From Desulfoprunum sp. (lineage in GTDB: Bacteria; Desulfobacterota; Desulfobulbia; Desulfobulbales; Desulfocapsaceae), in the NCBI GenBank assembly GCA_030696435.1, contig JAUYSF010000433.1, positions 1 through 14,436 on the forward strand: DNA of 14,436 bases. Direction: 5' to 3'. Positions 4,729 through 11,064 of the stretch are shown in pieces. Position numbers and translations under genes: made by a program. The notes beneath the pieces were generated by a model. That model saw only the letters and a program-made list of their open reading frames with translations, made no database searches and was not told the DNA's origin. The first letter of the stretch is position 1. The number at the start of each line of letters is the position of its first letter.

Positions 4729-5817
4729 TTGAAGTTACTCGACCGCTATCTCCTTGGTCAATTCATCAAATATTTTTTTACCGTCAACGTAGGTTTTGTC
4801 GCTATCTATCTGTTGGTGGATTTCTTTGAGAAGATTGACAATTTCTCCCGCGCAGGCAAACCATTTGCCTTGGCCATGAAATTCTTTATTCTCAATATTC
4901 CATTTATAATCGACCAGATAGGACCTGTCCTCATACTCCTCTCCGGGGTCATCAGTTTGGGTATCCTCAATCACACCCGCGAATTGACAGCCCTGAAGGC
5001 AGGCGGCATCCCTCTGAGGACCATCATCCGGCCGCTGATCATGGGTGGTTTCGGCCTGACCCTTCTCTTTCTGGCAGCAGCCCAGTTTCTCCTGCCAAAG
5101 ACCATTACCGCGACCAACAACATTTGGTATGAGCAGGTCAAAGGCAAGGTTCCCTTGGGGATCTACCGCAATGGCCGGTATTACTACAAAGGCAAGGAGG
5201 GTTTTTACAGTTTTGAATGGCCCCATTCGGAAAACTATGTCTTTAAAAACTTCTCCTACAGTTGCTGGGATGAAAAGTATAACATCAGGACCCTGCTCAA
5301 TTCGCAATGGGCCGACTGGAACGAAAAACGCAAGATGTGGATTTTGAAAGAAGGTCAGATTCAGGCCACCAAGGGGGACAGCACTTACAAAGTCAACAAC
5401 TTCAAGTACTGGGAGATACATCTTCCAGAAAATCCCGAGGACTTTCTGGTCCCGGAATACCAATCGGCTGAACTCTCTCTGACCGCTCTTTTTCTCGATA
5501 TCTCTAAAAAAGATTCCGATCGCGAGAAAAATAAAGCCTGGTCCGACTTTCTCAGCCGCATCTCCTATATATTCCTGGGTTTTCCGCTTCTGCTGCTGGG
5601 CCTGCCCATACTGCTGATCTCCTATCAGAAATGGGGTCGGGATCTCTCTATCGCCATTCCGGCCAGCTGTGGCATTGCCTTTTTAGCTTGGGGTGCCTGG
5701 GGCGCCCTGCAATCACTTGCCCGGGCTGCCTATATCTCTCCCTTGTTTGCGGCGGTCATCATCCACCTGCTTTTTGCCGGTGCGGGCATCTACCTCCTCA
5801 GAAAACAGGACCAGTAA
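4729..5817 (+). CDS. lptG: LPS export permease LptG (LptF/LptG family)
   Basis: Inner-membrane half of the LptB2FG ABC transporter that extracts lipopolysaccharide and passes it to the LptC-LptA bridge. The 362-residue protein has the family layout: three N-terminal membrane segments (about 12-33, 59-80, 99-121), a periplasmic beta-jellyroll (about 123-270) and three C-terminal segments (about 276-296, 306-326, 335-356). The opening LLDRYLL, the LVDFFEKID stretch and the coupling-helix region RELTALKAGG (84-93) favour LptG over LptF. The start is TTG at 4729, supported by GAGGAG 6 bases upstream. LptF, often adjacent, is not in this window. The next gene begins 3 bases after the stop, so the three plus-strand genes probably form one operon. 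Confidence 0.92.
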   Translation: MKLLDRYLLGQFIKYFFTVNVGFVAIYLLVDFFEKIDNFSRAGKPFALAMKFFILNIPFIIDQIGPVLILLSGVISLGILNHTRELTALKAGGIPLRTIIRPLIMGGFGLTLLFLAAAQFLLPKTITATNNIWYEQVKGKVPLGIYRNGRYYYKGKEGFYSFEWPHSENYVFKNFSYSCWDEKYNIRTLLNSQWADWNEKRKMWILKEGQIQATKGDSTYKVNNFKYWEIHLPENPEDFLVPEYQSAELSLTALFLDISKKDSDREKNKAWSDFLSRISYIFLGFPLLLLGLPILLISYQKWGRDLSIAIPASCGIAFLAWGAWGALQSLARAAYISPLFAAVIIHLLFAGAGIYLLRKQDQ

Positions 5818-5820
5818 GCG

Positions 5821-6585
5821 ATGAAGGCAGGGCAGCAAAGACAACGAGTCGGCATAGTCGGTATCCCACCTCTTGAAGTCATCTCGTTGCTGGAAACTGA
5901 GGGATGCCAGGTTTTTGATCTGGATGAGCCGCTGGTGAAAAAGGATATAGAATCAGCCTCCCCCTTTCTACCCAGGGTTTACTGCGCTATTCTCAGGACG
6001 GTCGTCATCAACGCCCTTGCCTTGCACCTCGACCGCATCTATATCGATGTCGGTCCCGGCAAGTGTGACAGTGCTTTGCACACCGCGACCATTCTGGCTG
6101 ATATTCTACCGAACACCATAATTATCCCGACACGCAATATGGATAGCTGCGATTTCGGCACGCCGCTCTGCAGAACCAGAATGCCCCTGCTCGACAGGAT
6201 GCTGGCTATCACGGCCTCCGTACAGAGTTCAAAATCCCATATCGAGCACGAGCCCTGTAAAGCCAGTTGCGGTTTCTGGGGAGTCCCACCACGAGACTTC
6301 TCCCTTTTAACCCTGTTTCCCGATACGACCCATATTTACGGCTGGACCCGCTGCATGGAAAACAAGACACCGGATAATAAACAAATGGAGGAGCATTTTA
6401 ATTCCGAGGTTCCGACGGTGTTTTTTGCCCAGTCTTTTTGTGCCAAGACTGCCCTGGCCCAGCATCTGGCCGGTCGCCACCCGCGTGGGCTGTATCTCGA
6501 CTGCGATGTGACCGTCGGCAACAGTGCGAAGTCGAAGATCCAGGCCTTTCTCGAACTTTCAGGTGTGCGCTGTGCTCATCGCTGA
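5821..6585 (+). CDS. Compact HgdB-like protein (2-hydroxyacyl-CoA dehydratase D-component family, divergent)
   Basis: A 254-residue soluble protein with 11 cysteines. Its C-terminus (GLYLDCD, then NSAKSKIQAFLEL, 223-246) resembles the LETDYT...GQLRTRIEAFLE end of HgdB-type subunits. FFAQSFC (201-207) resembles the KFC segment, and C55 plus KCDS (81-84) resemble the first two cluster-ligating cysteine motifs of that family. Those proteins hold a [4Fe-4S] or double-cubane cluster and receive electrons from an ATP-dependent activator. Family members are usually around 380 residues, so this is a miniature form. Two similar starts, GIPPLEVISLL (14-24) and GVPPRDFSLL (154-163), suggest two Rossmann-like halves. 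CKASC (146-150) is an extra cysteine pair. It starts 3 bases after lptG and overlaps the activator-like gene by 14 bases. The assignment rests on motif reading; the substrate is unknown. Confidence 0.65.
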   Translation: MKAGQQRQRVGIVGIPPLEVISLLETEGCQVFDLDEPLVKKDIESASPFLPRVYCAILRTVVINALALHLDRIYIDVGPGKCDSALHTATILADILPNTIIIPTRNMDSCDFGTPLCRTRMPLLDRMLAITASVQSSKSHIEHEPCKASCGFWGVPPRDFSLLTLFPDTTHIYGWTRCMENKTPDNKQMEEHFNSEVPTVFFAQSFCAKTALAQHLAGRHPRGLYLDCDVTVGNSAKSKIQAFLELSGVRCAHR

Positions 6586-7237
6586 CTTCGGCACCTCCTA
6601 CGTCAAGCTTCTGGATACCTCCCTTATCACCGAGGAACCCCGCATCATAGCCACCAGGGAGTTCAACCGCAGCCAGCGCGTCGATATCGCCACCGGCCAT
6701 AACGGCAAAAGCTATGCCACCTACTATATCAATGAACTTACAGCCCTGGCCCGCGGTGGAGAGCTACTCATAACAGAAGACAGCTATACCCTTCTTGACT
6801 GCGGGAGCAGGGACATCAAATTTGTGCGCTACGAGCAGGGACAGGTCAAGGATATGGGCTGGAATGCCGAATGCGGGGCTTCGATGGGATTCACCATCGA
6901 ACTGCTTGAACGCTACTACGACCTCGACTTTGCCAGTCTTGCCGTTCCTCTCTCGCCCTTTTCAGTGACCTGCGGTGTCCTCGGCATGAGCCATATCTTC
7001 GACGCGGTCATCAACGGCCAGAGCGAATCAGAGGCTGTCGCCCGTTTCGTCAAAGGTATTGCCCTGAACGCCTTCAACTTTGCCGGAAAACCTGACAAAA
7101 TTTATCTCTCAGGAGGTCTGTGCAATAATCCTCTTTTTGTCCGCTCATTTCCCTGCTCCCTGATTCCTCTGGGCCGCTACGTGCTCCTGGAAGGACTCAA
7201 GGCCTCGCTCTCACTCATAGGAGAATACACCGGATAA
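6572..7237 (+). CDS. BadF/BadG/BcrA/HgdC-family ATPase (dehydratase activator-like)
   Basis: A 221-residue ASKHA-fold ATPase. Family members (HgdC, BadF/G, BcrA/D, double-cubane reductases) are [4Fe-4S] homodimers that couple ATP hydrolysis to electron injection into a partner. Phosphate-binding motifs are IADFGTSYVK (3-12) and LLDCGSRDIKF (74-84). The cluster cysteine region is NAECGASMGF (98-107, C101). The second ligand is in SVTCGVLGMSHIF (131-143, C134). The adenosine motif is YLSGGLCNNPLFV (178-190). Both cluster cysteines are therefore kept, 33 residues apart, although the protein is shorter than the usual 260. GTG 6572 is chosen because AGGTG lies 6 bases upstream and the protein then begins directly at the first beta-strand. 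It overlaps the HgdB-like gene by 14 bases, which points to coupled expression of partners. Confidence 0.85.
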   Translation: MLIADFGTSYVKLLDTSLITEEPRIIATREFNRSQRVDIATGHNGKSYATYYINELTALARGGELLITEDSYTLLDCGSRDIKFVRYEQGQVKDMGWNAECGASMGFTIELLERYYDLDFASLAVPLSPFSVTCGVLGMSHIFDAVINGQSESEAVARFVKGIALNAFNFAGKPDKIYLSGGLCNNPLFVRSFPCSLIPLGRYVLLEGLKASLSLIGEYTG

Positions 7238-7362: not shown

Positions 7363-8118
7363 CTATTTCTTTTCTGTTTTCGGAGCCTTCGCTGCTTTCT
7401 CGGTTTTTTCTACTTTCTCGATGGAACGCAGATCGACCTCAAACACCAGAACCGAACCAGGCTCGATCACAGGCGGAGCTCCGTTGTCACCGTAGGCAAG
7501 CTCAGAAGGAATGACCACTCGGAATTTCGCTCCGACATTCATCAACTGCAGGGCCTCACTCCAACCGGGGATAACCTGACCAACCCCAAAGACAGCGGGT
7601 TCGCCTCGCTTAACGGAGTTGTCAAATTCCGTTCCATCAACCAGAGTGCCGACATAATCAACCTTGACAGTATCCGTAGCCTTTGGCAGAGGCCCGTCTC
7701 CCTTTTTCAGGACCTCATACTGCAGGCCGCTCTTGGTAACGATAACACCCTTTTTCTTCTTGTTTGTTTCAAGATAGGCAAGGCCGGATTTCTTATTCTT
7801 TTCCAGCATGGTTTTCATCTTTTCGGCCTGGCGGGTCTGCATTTTCTCGGCAAATTCCTTCTGTACCGCAGCAATTTCTTCTTTGGTCAACTTCTTCTCT
7901 GATCCGGCATAGGCATCATTGATTCCCTTGAGCAGGATATCGAGGGAAATATCATCCCCCATGCCCTTAAAATATGTCCCGACATCCAACCCCATGCTGT
8001 AACTCAGTTTTTCCTGAAACGTAGTCAGGGTTCCTGCTGCTTTGGGTTTCTCTGCGGCACAGAGCAAAGCCGGGCCGCACAACAGACTGACGACAACCAG
8101 CGCGATAATTCTTTTCAT
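7363..8118 (-). CDS. FKBP-type peptidyl-prolyl cis-trans isomerase, exported (FkpA/Mip-like)
   Basis: Catalyses proline isomerisation and assists folding, probably in the periplasm. The 251-residue precursor has a signal peptide (MKRIIALVVVSLLC, cleavage near residues 20-23). A helical FKBP_N dimerisation part (about 34-120) is rich in Lys/Glu, and the FKBP domain is at about 145-233. Active-site residues are kept: Tyr155, Phe165-Asp166 in EFDNS, VIPGW (182-186), AYG (208-210) and Phe226. The tail after 233 is a low-complexity Lys/Glu/Ala run. Cys20 is not in a canonical lipobox, so a lipoprotein is unlikely. ATG 8118 is supported by AAGGAG 7 bases upstream; the open frame continues 51 codons further but would bury the signal peptide. 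Bases 8119-8342 upstream show no clear promoter; TTGAGA-16-TATTGA near 8294-8321 is a weak candidate. Confidence 0.93.
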   Translation of the reverse strand: MKRIIALVVVSLLCGPALLCAAEKPKAAGTLTTFQEKLSYSMGLDVGTYFKGMGDDISLDILLKGINDAYAGSEKKLTKEEIAAVQKEFAEKMQTRQAEKMKTMLEKNKKSGLAYLETNKKKKGVIVTKSGLQYEVLKKGDGPLPKATDTVKVDYVGTLVDGTEFDNSVKRGEPAVFGVGQVIPGWSEALQLMNVGAKFRVVIPSELAYGDNGAPPVIEPGSVLVFEVDLRSIEKVEKTEKAAKAPKTEKK

Positions 8119-8342
8119 TCCTCTACTCCTTTTTTGTATTCGTGTACATAACTCTGCATACACCCCCATTCGGTGCCTTTCTCTCTCCCGTCGACAGCGC
8201 CCGTAAACAATCCAGCATACAAGATCGCCTGCAAGGATGATACCTCTGTCGAAGGAATCCTTATACTGCATTTACCGCAAAAATAACACTGGATCAATAC
8301 ATATCCCTTGAATTTTCTCAAGATTCACAGGCACGAGGACTT

Positions 8343-8786
8343 TTAGAGAATGACTACTGTAATTCCTGGATTATTTATTTTAAGATTCTTATCTTGGCTC
8401 AACTGCGGATAACGACGCACAAGAGCCTTGGCTGGACCTGCCTTGCTGCTATACTCCTCACCTGGGATGTAATCACAGATTTCTTTTCTGAGTCGCATAT
8501 AATCGAGGGACTTACGGCACTCTTCCCGGATTACGCCCCCCTTGCCACTCGAACCGTAGCCGTGAATCAGGGTAAGCAGACGTATACCTTCACGTTTGGC
8601 CGTGCCAATCTCTAGCGTCAATCGGCGCAGGGCAGTTTCTGCTGAAGGGCGTCCCCGTTCAAGGTTGACCGTTTTTTGGAGAAAAGGGCTTTTCGGAAGA
8701 AGGTGATCTTGCTGTTCACTTGCACAGAACCTGCAAATCAGGCTCCCCATCGAAATTTCATTGCCACAGACCTGGCAGAGAATCAT
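8343..8786 (-). CDS. Zinc-ribbon plus Smr-domain protein
   Basis: A 147-residue protein. An N-terminal zinc ribbon is formed by C4-x2-C7 and C18-x2-C21. From about residue 38 a Smr (small MutS-related) domain follows: a leading strand VNLERG (40-45), a helix with ETALRRL, then LLTLIHGYGSSGKGG (70-84) with the HGxG loop, and a closing DYIPGEEYS-type segment. Smr domains bind or nick branched DNA or act on RNA and stalled ribosomes. The usual LDLHG motif is replaced by NLERG, so nuclease activity is doubtful. The gene lies 82 bases downstream of rsh on the same strand. ATG 8786 has no good ribosome binding site but overlaps the stop of a possible 18-codon leader; a GTG at 8804 is an alternative start. 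Confidence 0.78.
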   Translation of the reverse strand: MILCQVCGNEISMGSLICRFCASEQQDHLLPKSPFLQKTVNLERGRPSAETALRRLTLEIGTAKREGIRLLTLIHGYGSSGKGGVIREECRKSLDYMRLRKEICDYIPGEEYSSKAGPAKALVRRYPQLSQDKNLKINNPGITVVIL

Positions 8787-8839
8787 AGTCGGGCCATACA
8801 ACACCAGCTGGTTTGATATTCTGCCATTTTCCCAGTCAT
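8783..8839 (-). CDS. Possible leader peptide coupled to the Smr gene
   Basis: An 18-codon frame starts at ATG 8839, preceded by a purine-rich GAGGGCGGGGT, and stops with TGA at 8785-8783. The stop overlaps the ATG of the Smr gene as ATGA. Since the Smr start lacks its own Shine-Dalgarno sequence, reinitiation from this frame is plausible. The peptide MTGKMAEYQTSWCCMARL matches nothing known. It may be coincidence. Confidence 0.2.
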   Translation of the reverse strand: MTGKMAEYQTSWCCMARL

Positions 8840-8868
8840 ACCCCGCCCTCAGGCCCTCCTCTCCGACG

Positions 8869-11064
8869 TTACAGTCTTCGCACGGAGATCACATGCTCCA
8901 TCTGCCTGAGATGCTGCATCAGAATATGCAGATGATCGAGATTCTCGACTTCTAGGGTAATTGTCAGATCTGCGGTATCCGCCGGGGTGACATGGGCTGC
9001 CACCTCGACTATATTGGCATTGTCGACACTAATGGTCGAACTGATCTCGGCAAAAATCCCTCGCCTGTTTTCCGCGCTGACATGGATTCCCGCCCTATAG
9101 TGTTTATCCTCGAGACCAGCCCAGGAGACATCGATCCAGCGTTGGGGATCGGTGTTCAGGAGATTGACGCAGTCTGCCTTGTGCACCGAGACCCCACGCC
9201 CAGTCGTGATAAATCCGACAATAGCATCACCCGGCACCGGGTTGCAGCACTGGCTGATTTTCACCAGCATGCCATCTATGCCATCGATACTGATCCCCGT
9301 TTTTCCGGGCTCTTTCTCCGTTGTCTGCTGGCTGACTAGACGACCAGCCAATTCCTCAGGAGACAGATCGGAATTCTCCTTTTCCTTCTCCTGCTGCAGT
9401 TCGGGGGGCTGCAAGGCCTTTATCAGAGTCTGGACGGTAATGACGCCACTGCCCACCTTGATCAGCATATCATCCAGGTGGTTACAGCGGAGATGTTTGA
9501 GCAGCAGACGAATGTGGCCGCTCTTGATCATCTTCTTGAGGCTGGTATTGTTGTTCTTGATCTCCCGCTCACAGATCTCACGGCCCAGCTTAAGTGCCTT
9601 TTCTTTTTCTTCCCGCCTGAGCCAGTTGCGGATCCTCGCCTTCGCCCTGCTGGTCTTCACCAGATCCAGCCACCCGCGGCGGGGCCGCTGATTCGGCGAG
9701 GTGATGATCTCGACGATATCGCCGATCTGCAGCTGGTATTTGAGAGGCACCAGACGTCCATTGACCTTGGCACCGACGCAGTGATCACCAACCTCGGTGT
9801 GTACGGCATAGGCAAAATCAATCGGCCCGCTGCCAAGAGGGAACTCCTTGACCTGGCCGCCGGGCGTCAGGGCGTAGACATCCGGCTCATACAGTTCTCC
9901 CTTGACGCTGTCAAGGAACTCGCGCGGATCCTCAACCTCATGCAGGGATTTAACAAGTTTTTTCAGTTCCCGGAACAGTCGGGCATCGTTCTGGCTGACC
10001 TTCTGTCCTTCTTTATAGGCCCAGTGCGCGGCAACACCTTCCTGGGCCACCCGATCCATCTCTTCGGTACGGATCTGGATCTCGATGAAATGTTCGCGCG
10101 GTCCCACTACAGTGGTATGCAGCGATTGATAATTGTTGGCCTTGGGACTCGAGATGAAGTCCTTGATCCGCCCTGGTACCGGTGCCCAATCGGCATGGAT
10201 GATACCGAGGGCCTCATAACATTCGTTGACCGACTCGACGATTATGCGGAAAGCCACCTTGTCATACACCCGTTCGAGGGGAATGTTTTGCACGACAAGC
10301 TTTTTATAGATCGAAAACAGATGCTTGGGTCTACCAATAATACGCCTTGCGGTGATATTACTTTCGGCCAGCTTACCATGCAAGATGGAGATCACCTCAT
10401 TGACATATTGCTGCCGCTCATCAAGAGAGTCCTCGAGCTTACCGGCTAGATCAGTATATTCCTGGGGATAGAGATATTTAAAGGCGAGATCCTCCAGTTC
10501 CCGTTTGAGCCAGTCTATACCGATACGGCTGGCCAGGGGAGCATAGAGATCCATGGTCTCCCGGGCCATTTCCAGCTGTGTCTCCCGATCGACCATGTCG
10601 AGGAGGAACATATCCTGCAACCGATCCACCAGTTTCACCAGGAGGACCCGGATATCCGCGGCAATTGCCAGCAGCATCTTGCGGACATTCTCGGCCTGAT
10701 TTGCCAGCTTACTGTCGTATTGCACCTCGGTGATCCGGGTCGAGCCTGCAACAATGGCCGCGACATCCTTGCCGAATTTCTGATGCAATTCCTCTATGGT
10801 GACGCCCTCTTTCAGCACCCCATGTAGCAAGCCGGCCAGAACCGTATCCAGATCGAGGTGCATGGAGGCCAGCATTGAAGCGACCTCCAGGGCGTGAATG
10901 AGATATGATTCCCCTGAAAAATGCCGTTTCCCGCCGTGTACCTTGACGACGACACTCCAGGCCTCGTCGATCAGCGAGAGATCGACACCGTTGAGATAAT
11001 TGGCTGCCAGGACCTTCAGGCCCCGGGGATTAATCATTGACCCGTTTGGCATACGAACAGTCAC
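8869..11064 (-). CDS. rsh: RelA/SpoT-family (p)ppGpp synthetase with degenerate hydrolase domain
   Basis: A 731-residue long RSH protein: HD domain (about 30-190), synthetase (about 230-350), TGS (about 394-455), helical part, zinc-finger region with C606-C607, H628 and C632, and ACT domain (about 657-731). The synthetase looks intact: GRPKHLFSIYKK (244-255), RIKD (299-302, the RXKD type of bifunctional enzymes), NNYQSLHTT (310-318) and EIQIRT (328-333, catalytic Glu328). The hydrolase site does not: H57 and D147 remain, but the HD pair is His81-Gly82, the following ED is Lys-Glu, and RLHNM is RLQDM. It is probably a ppGpp synthetase without hydrolase. It starts 9 bases after proS, so amino-acid charging and stringent response are linked. 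GTG 11064 or ATG 11052 (AAGGTG 9 bases upstream) may be the start. Confidence 0.93.
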   Translation of the reverse strand: MTVRMPNGSMINPRGLKVLAANYLNGVDLSLIDEAWSVVVKVHGGKRHFSGESYLIHALEVASMLASMHLDLDTVLAGLLHGVLKEGVTIEELHQKFGKDVAAIVAGSTRITEVQYDSKLANQAENVRKMLLAIAADIRVLLVKLVDRLQDMFLLDMVDRETQLEMARETMDLYAPLASRIGIDWLKRELEDLAFKYLYPQEYTDLAGKLEDSLDERQQYVNEVISILHGKLAESNITARRIIGRPKHLFSIYKKLVVQNIPLERVYDKVAFRIIVESVNECYEALGIIHADWAPVPGRIKDFISSPKANNYQSLHTTVVGPREHFIEIQIRTEEMDRVAQEGVAAHWAYKEGQKVSQNDARLFRELKKLVKSLHEVEDPREFLDSVKGELYEPDVYALTPGGQVKEFPLGSGPIDFAYAVHTEVGDHCVGAKVNGRLVPLKYQLQIGDIVEIITSPNQRPRRGWLDLVKTSRAKARIRNWLRREEKEKALKLGREICEREIKNNNTSLKKMIKSGHIRLLLKHLRCNHLDDMLIKVGSGVITVQTLIKALQPPELQQEKEKENSDLSPEELAGRLVSQQTTEKEPGKTGISIDGIDGMLVKISQCCNPVPGDAIVGFITTGRGVSVHKADCVNLLNTDPQRWIDVSWAGLEDKHYRAGIHVSAENRRGIFAEISSTISVDNANIVEVAAHVTPADTADLTITLEVENLDHLHILMQHLRQMEHVISVRRL

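Follow-up and report, generated by a model that had tools for sequence, protein, structure and literature searches.

A miniature HGD-D-like protein and a small activator-type ATPase form a conserved gene pair, probably an ATP-driven reductase of the BCR-I/HAD superfamily

The window analysed here is the whole 14,436-nucleotide stretch of contig JAUYSF010000433.1 (assembly GCA_030696435.1) from Desulfoprunum sp., of the order Desulfobulbales in the phylum Desulfobacterota, and its subject is a pair of overlapping genes, here named A and B. The pair probably encodes a self-contained, ATP-driven reductase of the superfamily of class I benzoyl-coenzyme A (CoA) reductases and 2-hydroxyacyl-CoA dehydratases (BCR-I/HAD), in which B would inject an electron into a cluster of A, and A would reduce a substrate that is probably free of CoA. 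Anaerobes rely on ATP-powered iron-sulfur enzymes of this kind for especially demanding reductions, and the pair, carried by anaerobic sulfur bacteria, resembles a pared-down form of them. A distinct reductase had been suggested in an earlier note made from the sequence alone, whose observations proved right in detail and whose interpretation proved largely so. The two genes and their junction are as follows:

5821..6585, forward strand: gene A, miniature HGD-D-like protein with a BCR-I/HAD fold, putative cluster-bearing reductase, 254 residues, ATG start
6572..7237, forward strand: gene B, small activator-type ASKHA ATPase, 221 residues from GTG 6572
6572..6585, forward strand: 14 bases shared by the 3' end of A and the 5' end of B, read from the sequence

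The overlap, which is as the earlier note gave it, suggests translational coupling of A and B. A mechanical list of open reading frames starts B at an upstream GTG, 6524; B is read here from GTG 6572. The aligned parts of A and B are spaced alike in loci L051-L053, L056, and L118.

The predicted model of A comprises two alpha/beta domains with four-stranded parallel sheets, as in the HGD-D fold, and its top Foldseek match is HadC. This structural comparison had been set beforehand as a possible refutation, and A does show a predicted fold of the HGD-D type; its C-terminus and cysteine motifs, described earlier as HgdB-like in a protein of only 254 residues, likewise align with HGD-D proteins. 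The cysteines were followed through an alignment of 236 of 239 listed sequences (those of at least 230 residues, including the window's own; three shorter ones were dropped):

5983..5985, forward strand: Cys55 of A, motif LPxxYC, aligned with the first proximal HGD-D cluster cysteine, 236/236
6064..6066, forward strand: Cys82 of A, motif GxGKCDS, aligned with the second proximal cluster cysteine, 236/236
6439..6441, forward strand: Cys207 of A, motif AQSFCAK, aligned at low confidence with the third proximal cluster cysteine, 236/236
6352..6354, forward strand: Cys178 of A, motif GWTRCxE, nearly invariant (231/236), possibly a remnant of a distal double-cubane ligand, assignment uncertain

As judged by alignment, each of the three proximal ligands has a counterpart in A, which carries one further cysteine, and Cys55, Cys82, and Cys207 are the predicted ligands of a proximal cubane, the third being weakly aligned. 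Trp153 and Trp175 are also present in all 236 sequences, and Cys117 in 158. Residue 13, which is Val in 123 and Trp in 90 sequences (213/236 together), is placed by full-length hhalign opposite the first HGD-D-domain cysteine, Cys36 of BzdN, in a stretch of low confidence; an hhalign -glob run with a broader alignment of the family (A2) gave a different, worse alignment. In BzdNO, the double cubane is bound by Cys36, Cys73, Cys100, Cys263, Cys293, and Cys327 of BzdN and the single cubane by Cys95, Cys128, and Cys380 of BzdO, and Trp46 and the substrate occupy the place left by the lost sub-cluster (PMC11971306, available part). An intermediate domain of three helices in BzdN and BzdO helps to form the channel for the CoA tail (PMC11971306, available part). 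It extends over 72-78 residues there, as against about 45 residues with one long helix in the model of A, counted from the strand that ends the first half (100-104) to the strand that opens the second (150-154). Modelled in this way, A is without most of the helical CoA-channel domain, and for that reason its substrate is probably not a CoA ester.

The predicted ASKHA fold of B is nearest to that of the activators, and its signature residues Asp5, Gly7, Lys12, Asp76, Gly78, Asp81, Lys83, Gly181, and Gly182 are invariant in an alignment of 119 sequences (118 of 120 listed homologues plus the window), which bears out the earlier description of B as a dehydratase-activator-like ATPase. Four cysteines are equally invariant in the same alignment:

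6872..6874, forward strand: Cys101 of B, first putative ligand of an inter-subunit [4Fe-4S] cluster by alignment with activators, 119/119
6971..6973, forward strand: Cys134 of B, second putative ligand of the inter-subunit cluster by the same alignment, 119/119
7121..7156, forward strand: Cys184 and Cys195 of B, behind the GG motif, both 119/119

Cys101 and Cys134, both present as the earlier note had them, align with the cluster cysteines of 7yyl_E and 1hux_A, and B thus combines the phosphate motifs with the two cluster cysteines of an HgdC/BcrAD-type activator; Cys184 has no cysteine counterpart in either of these two activator alignments. DCCP-R and HgdC tie as the best PDB sequence match of B, and HadI matches it at E 4.5e-9.

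Searches returned 1334 homologues of A at E <= 1e-3, with relatives bearing the names Latescibacteria, Armatimonadota, and Melainabacteria, and 603 homologues of B. Adjacency was surveyed within the phylum, and counts of named loci refer to the 80 retained of 304 confirmed relatives in named genomes. The earlier note had wished to see conserved adjacency surveyed: of the 76 named loci that extend at least 900 bases downstream, 75 have B directly 3' of A, the sole exception being L092, where about 3 kb of other sequence (7975-10957) splits the two. A was found in 24 of 297 genomes across the phylum, and each of these 24 also holds a close B (E < 1e-60) that adjoins A; in one of them (G108) A is divided between contigs, and B lies beside its 3' portion. 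Within the order, 158 of 193 genomes held A and 159 a close B (E <= 1e-30); in the genome with B and no A found (G318), the lptG contig stops before A. The lptG locus was recovered in 11 of 12 genomes where A was not found, and in the ten of these other than G318 the 1.5 kb behind lptG holds FKBP-type, DUF362, or other genes, neither A nor B. A and B are under purifying selection: comparisons with six relatives gave ratios of nonsynonymous to synonymous substitution rates (dN/dS) of 0.06-0.12 in A and 0.03-0.12 in B, with dS near saturation in most of them.

A survey of 395 genomes of the phylum with the A2 profile of the family gave matches at E <= 1e-3 in 28 of them; each belongs to the order or to one of two other lineages, f20 and f42, and no further lineage was found. 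The listed places of the profile matches are A genes already found, although f42 genomes carry many full-size HGD-D genes, which marks A as a discrete family. An A2 scan of viral contigs gave 39 pattern stretches, none of which was confirmed. An apparent in-frame TAG in the B genes of five f20 genomes was set aside; it is most likely the gene's own stop, which the alignment overruns by a few residues (seen in L015-L017).

We envisage the pair as working in the following way. B would form a dimer, as known activators do, that shares one [4Fe-4S] cluster through Cys101 and Cys134 and would receive one electron from a low-potential carrier such as ferredoxin. Binding and hydrolysis of ATP by B would then push the electron onto A, whose two-domain HGD-D core would hold one cluster. 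The ligands of this cluster would be Cys55, Cys82, and Cys207, and Cys178 might serve as a fourth or auxiliary one. A would act as a homodimer, since there is only one A gene, and its reduced cluster would pass the electron to a substrate, probably something other than a CoA ester, that may be a small molecule or a protein-bound cofactor.

Several results weigh against this reading. The profile searches proposed earlier did not place A in the expected family: A has no match in Pfam, PF06050 included, or in NCBIfam at E <= 1, and so does not reach the curated PF06050 family score, and among 25 of its relatives only 4 match PF06050 (best E 4e-4). Those for B did return activator families, at low scores (PF01869, 18.2 bits against a curated cut-off of 31.5; TIGR00241, E 8.4e-8 and 32 bits against 125.4). 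Against solved structures, the best match of the A profile has an E of only 0.33 and A2 has none up to E 10, and hhalign probabilities of A with HGD-D proteins are only 28-44%. The full-length hhalign alignment was run without an accuracy threshold and is of low confidence, and, forced in this way, it does not place Cys178, for which BzdN Cys263 and Cys293 are the candidate counterparts. Furthermore, no conserved neighbour names a substrate, and the pair is missing from 34 of 193 genomes of the order, from which it follows that its function is dispensable.

The pair was also set beside the established members of the superfamily. A CoA-ester dehydratase or benzoyl-CoA reductase was rejected on the grounds that there is no second subunit and that most of the CoA-channel helices are missing. 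The (R)-2-hydroxyisocaproyl-CoA dehydratase HadBC with its activator HadI (PDB 3o3m, 4eht) resembles A in that two A cysteines align well and a third weakly, but HadBC has two different subunits, whereas A is single and without most of those helices. Class I benzoyl-CoA reductase of the bzd/mbd type (PDB 8s02, 9gai) is a heterodimer that has a double cubane and a catalytic cluster and acts on a CoA ester; compared with it, A is single, short, and devoid of most of the intermediate domain. Both enzyme types have two different HGD-D subunits, and only one A gene was found here. No second HGD-D subunit or CoA-transferase was seen by eye in the window, as noted earlier, and PF06050 gives no match at E <= 1e-3 anywhere in the host assembly, which is 93% complete and comprises 3.82 Mb in 494 contigs. 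Nor does the pair always accompany known dehydratase subunits, an outcome that had been named as a possible refutation: in a PF06050 survey of 25 genomes, 24 with the pair and one without, 7 of the 24 have no match at E <= 1e-3, 3 have matches only near 9e-4, below the cut-off, and 14 have matches above the cut-off. Each of 8 f42 genomes has 12 to 32 PF06050 matches.

The double-cubane cluster protein DCCP and its partner DCCP-R (PDB 6eno, 7yyl, 7yzm) share with A-B the layout of one HGD-D gene and one activator, and a DCCP-like small-molecule reductase, with the four cysteines building a double-cubane-type or [4Fe-5S] cluster and substrates of the acetylene, azide, or hydrazine type, is an improbable alternative. 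DCCP has about 420 residues as against 254 in A, and the family model NF040772, with a cut-off of 350, is reached by a DCCP relative from the phylum (L135, 469.4) and not by A, which has no NCBIfam match even at E <= 1. The double cubane of BzdN needs six cysteines (PMC11971306, available part), whereas only four are conserved in A, and the position aligned with Cys36, in the low-confidence stretch mentioned above, is Val or Trp in 213/236. A double cubane as the default for A was therefore rejected, two of the six ligand positions not being conserved, and none is expected. The earlier view of the pair as closer to double-cubane proteins stands for its layout and for DCCP-R as a joint best match of B, and fails on the cysteines. 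By its motifs and predicted folds, the pair is placed as a new compact variant within the BCR-I/HAD superfamily and as a member of none of DCCP, HAD, and BCR, whose defining features were tested for and not found.

TudS, the 4-thiouridine-5'-monophosphate desulfidase, is not known to have an activator. Like A it is a reduced HGD-D relative; it has one cluster and is described as a single-domain, sulfur-transferring protein (PMC11971306, available part). A, with its two domains and an activator encoded next to it, does not have the makeup of TudS.

The features that surround the pair in the window are:

4729..5817, forward strand: lptG, co-directional upstream neighbour, context outside the module
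7363-8271: convergent gene 3' of B, FKBP-type by eye

Farther upstream, at 390-2926, the window holds two GlgC-like (ADP-glucose pyrophosphorylase) genes in tandem, recognised by eye. The place directly behind lptG, which had been called unexplained, is regular within the order, where lptG is directly 5' of A in 70 of the 71 named loci with at least 1300 bases upstream, but it looks like a lineage-specific neighbourhood, as no lptG match occurs within the 12-16 kb read around the pair in L042-L047 from the two other lineages. In f20 the pair precedes lysS and a permease gene of the FtsX/MacB type (identified by a scan of L042; the sequence of L043 is similar), and in f42 it sits beside metallo-beta-lactamase-type genes (Pfam scan of L044 only); dependence on lptG was rejected on this basis. 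The metallo-beta-lactamase-type genes flank the pair on both sides in L044, L045, and L047 and were seen only downstream in L046. A mobile cassette finds no support in the conserved location of the pair; no test aimed at it was made. In some genomes a DUF362 gene follows the pair, and where the pair is missing one can come straight after lptG (L062:9294-10250, L166:643-1485, and L167:2626-3450; by Pfam for L167 and by sequence resemblance only for L166), so these genes are not tied to the pair.

The one further neighbour that recurs is a gene resembling the corrinoid reductive activator RACo (L039:3529-5061, with counterparts upstream of lptG in many of L057-L130), which diverges from the lptG-A-B operon in most loci of the order that were read. 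In the one representative scanned, its product matches PF14574, PF17651, and PF17650, and NF040756 only from profile position 131, the N-terminal [2Fe-2S] part being missing. Such proteins prompt the idea of A-B as an electron-feeding module that supplies low-potential electrons to another protein, for instance this RACo-like activator without its [2Fe-2S] domain, an unlikely reading. In its favour, a RACo homologue lies within 5 kb upstream in 43 of the 50 named loci whose upstream sequence reaches at least 4.6 kb. The gene was also counted in 127 of the 159 genomes that hold A or B, as against 6 of the 34 that hold neither (Fisher P 1e-11, relatedness ignored; tallied by hand from best E <= 1e-120, plus G195 and G240, the pair-less genomes being those left over), and in those six it begins no more than 2.3 kb from the start of a contig, in the direction in which the pair would be expected. 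However, this association may be mere physical linkage. A close RACo copy is also lacking in 32 of the 159 genomes with A or B, including the window's genus, PF14574 has no match in the 4/4 f42 genomes searched, all with the pair, and the surroundings of the pair in the window and in L051-L054, L062, L110, and L127 showed no RACo-like gene. Given its absence from the window's genus and that of PF14574 from those f42 genomes, the RACo-like protein is at most an optional partner of A-B. A broader and likewise doubtful version would make A-B the smallest nitrogenase-like, ATP-driven electron pump of the BCR-I/HAD superfamily, a general low-potential source, for example for a corrinoid activator without its own iron-sulfur domain, with Cys184 and Cys195 of B adding a redox or metal site.

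A non-redox or regulatory paralogue, with A as a cluster-holding sensor or sulfur-transfer enzyme and B as a switch, is very unlikely: TudS does show an HGD-D domain turned into a sulfur-transferring enzyme with one cluster (PMC11971306, available part), but it has one domain to the two of A, and in B neither the checked ATPase signature residues nor the two cluster cysteines vary in any of the 119 sequences.

The plasmalogen synthase PlsA/PlsR, a putative relative of the activase/HGD-D superfamily, provides a precedent for a superfamily reductase acting on lipids rather than CoA esters; PlsA-like proteins are long multi-domain chains. In the host genome, PF01869 scores exceed the cut-off only at two stretches within a single long frame in locus L001 (G000:C29, from 496), an open frame of 1425 residues with two activase domains, in which TIGR00241 matches twice within the 1088-residue part scanned and which is presumably PlsA/DUF2229-like. 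The PlsA/PlsR genes are described as encoding reductases of an acyl ester to an alkenyl ether (PMC9702350, available part). Among the literature entries listed, judged by titles and the starts of abstracts, there was no paper on the A-B pair, which does not prove that none exists. PMC5516251 makes no mention of hydroxyglutaryl, dehydratase, or Wood-Ljungdahl in its main text.

ATP-driven injection of very-low-potential electrons is known from few systems, and the best-studied BCR-I/HAD enzymes act on CoA esters. A compact, conserved pair without most of the predicted CoA-channel domain, present in 158 of 193 genomes of the order, points to an undescribed reductive reaction. The superfamily has been proposed to evolve by losing sub-clusters (PMC11971306, available part), and A-B bears on that proposal as an intermediate between the full-size enzymes and the single-domain TudS, one that would have retained its ATPase. 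The pair is open to experiment because both genes are present in cultured species such as Desulfoprunum benzoelyticum (L053) and Desulfofustis glycolicus (L062).
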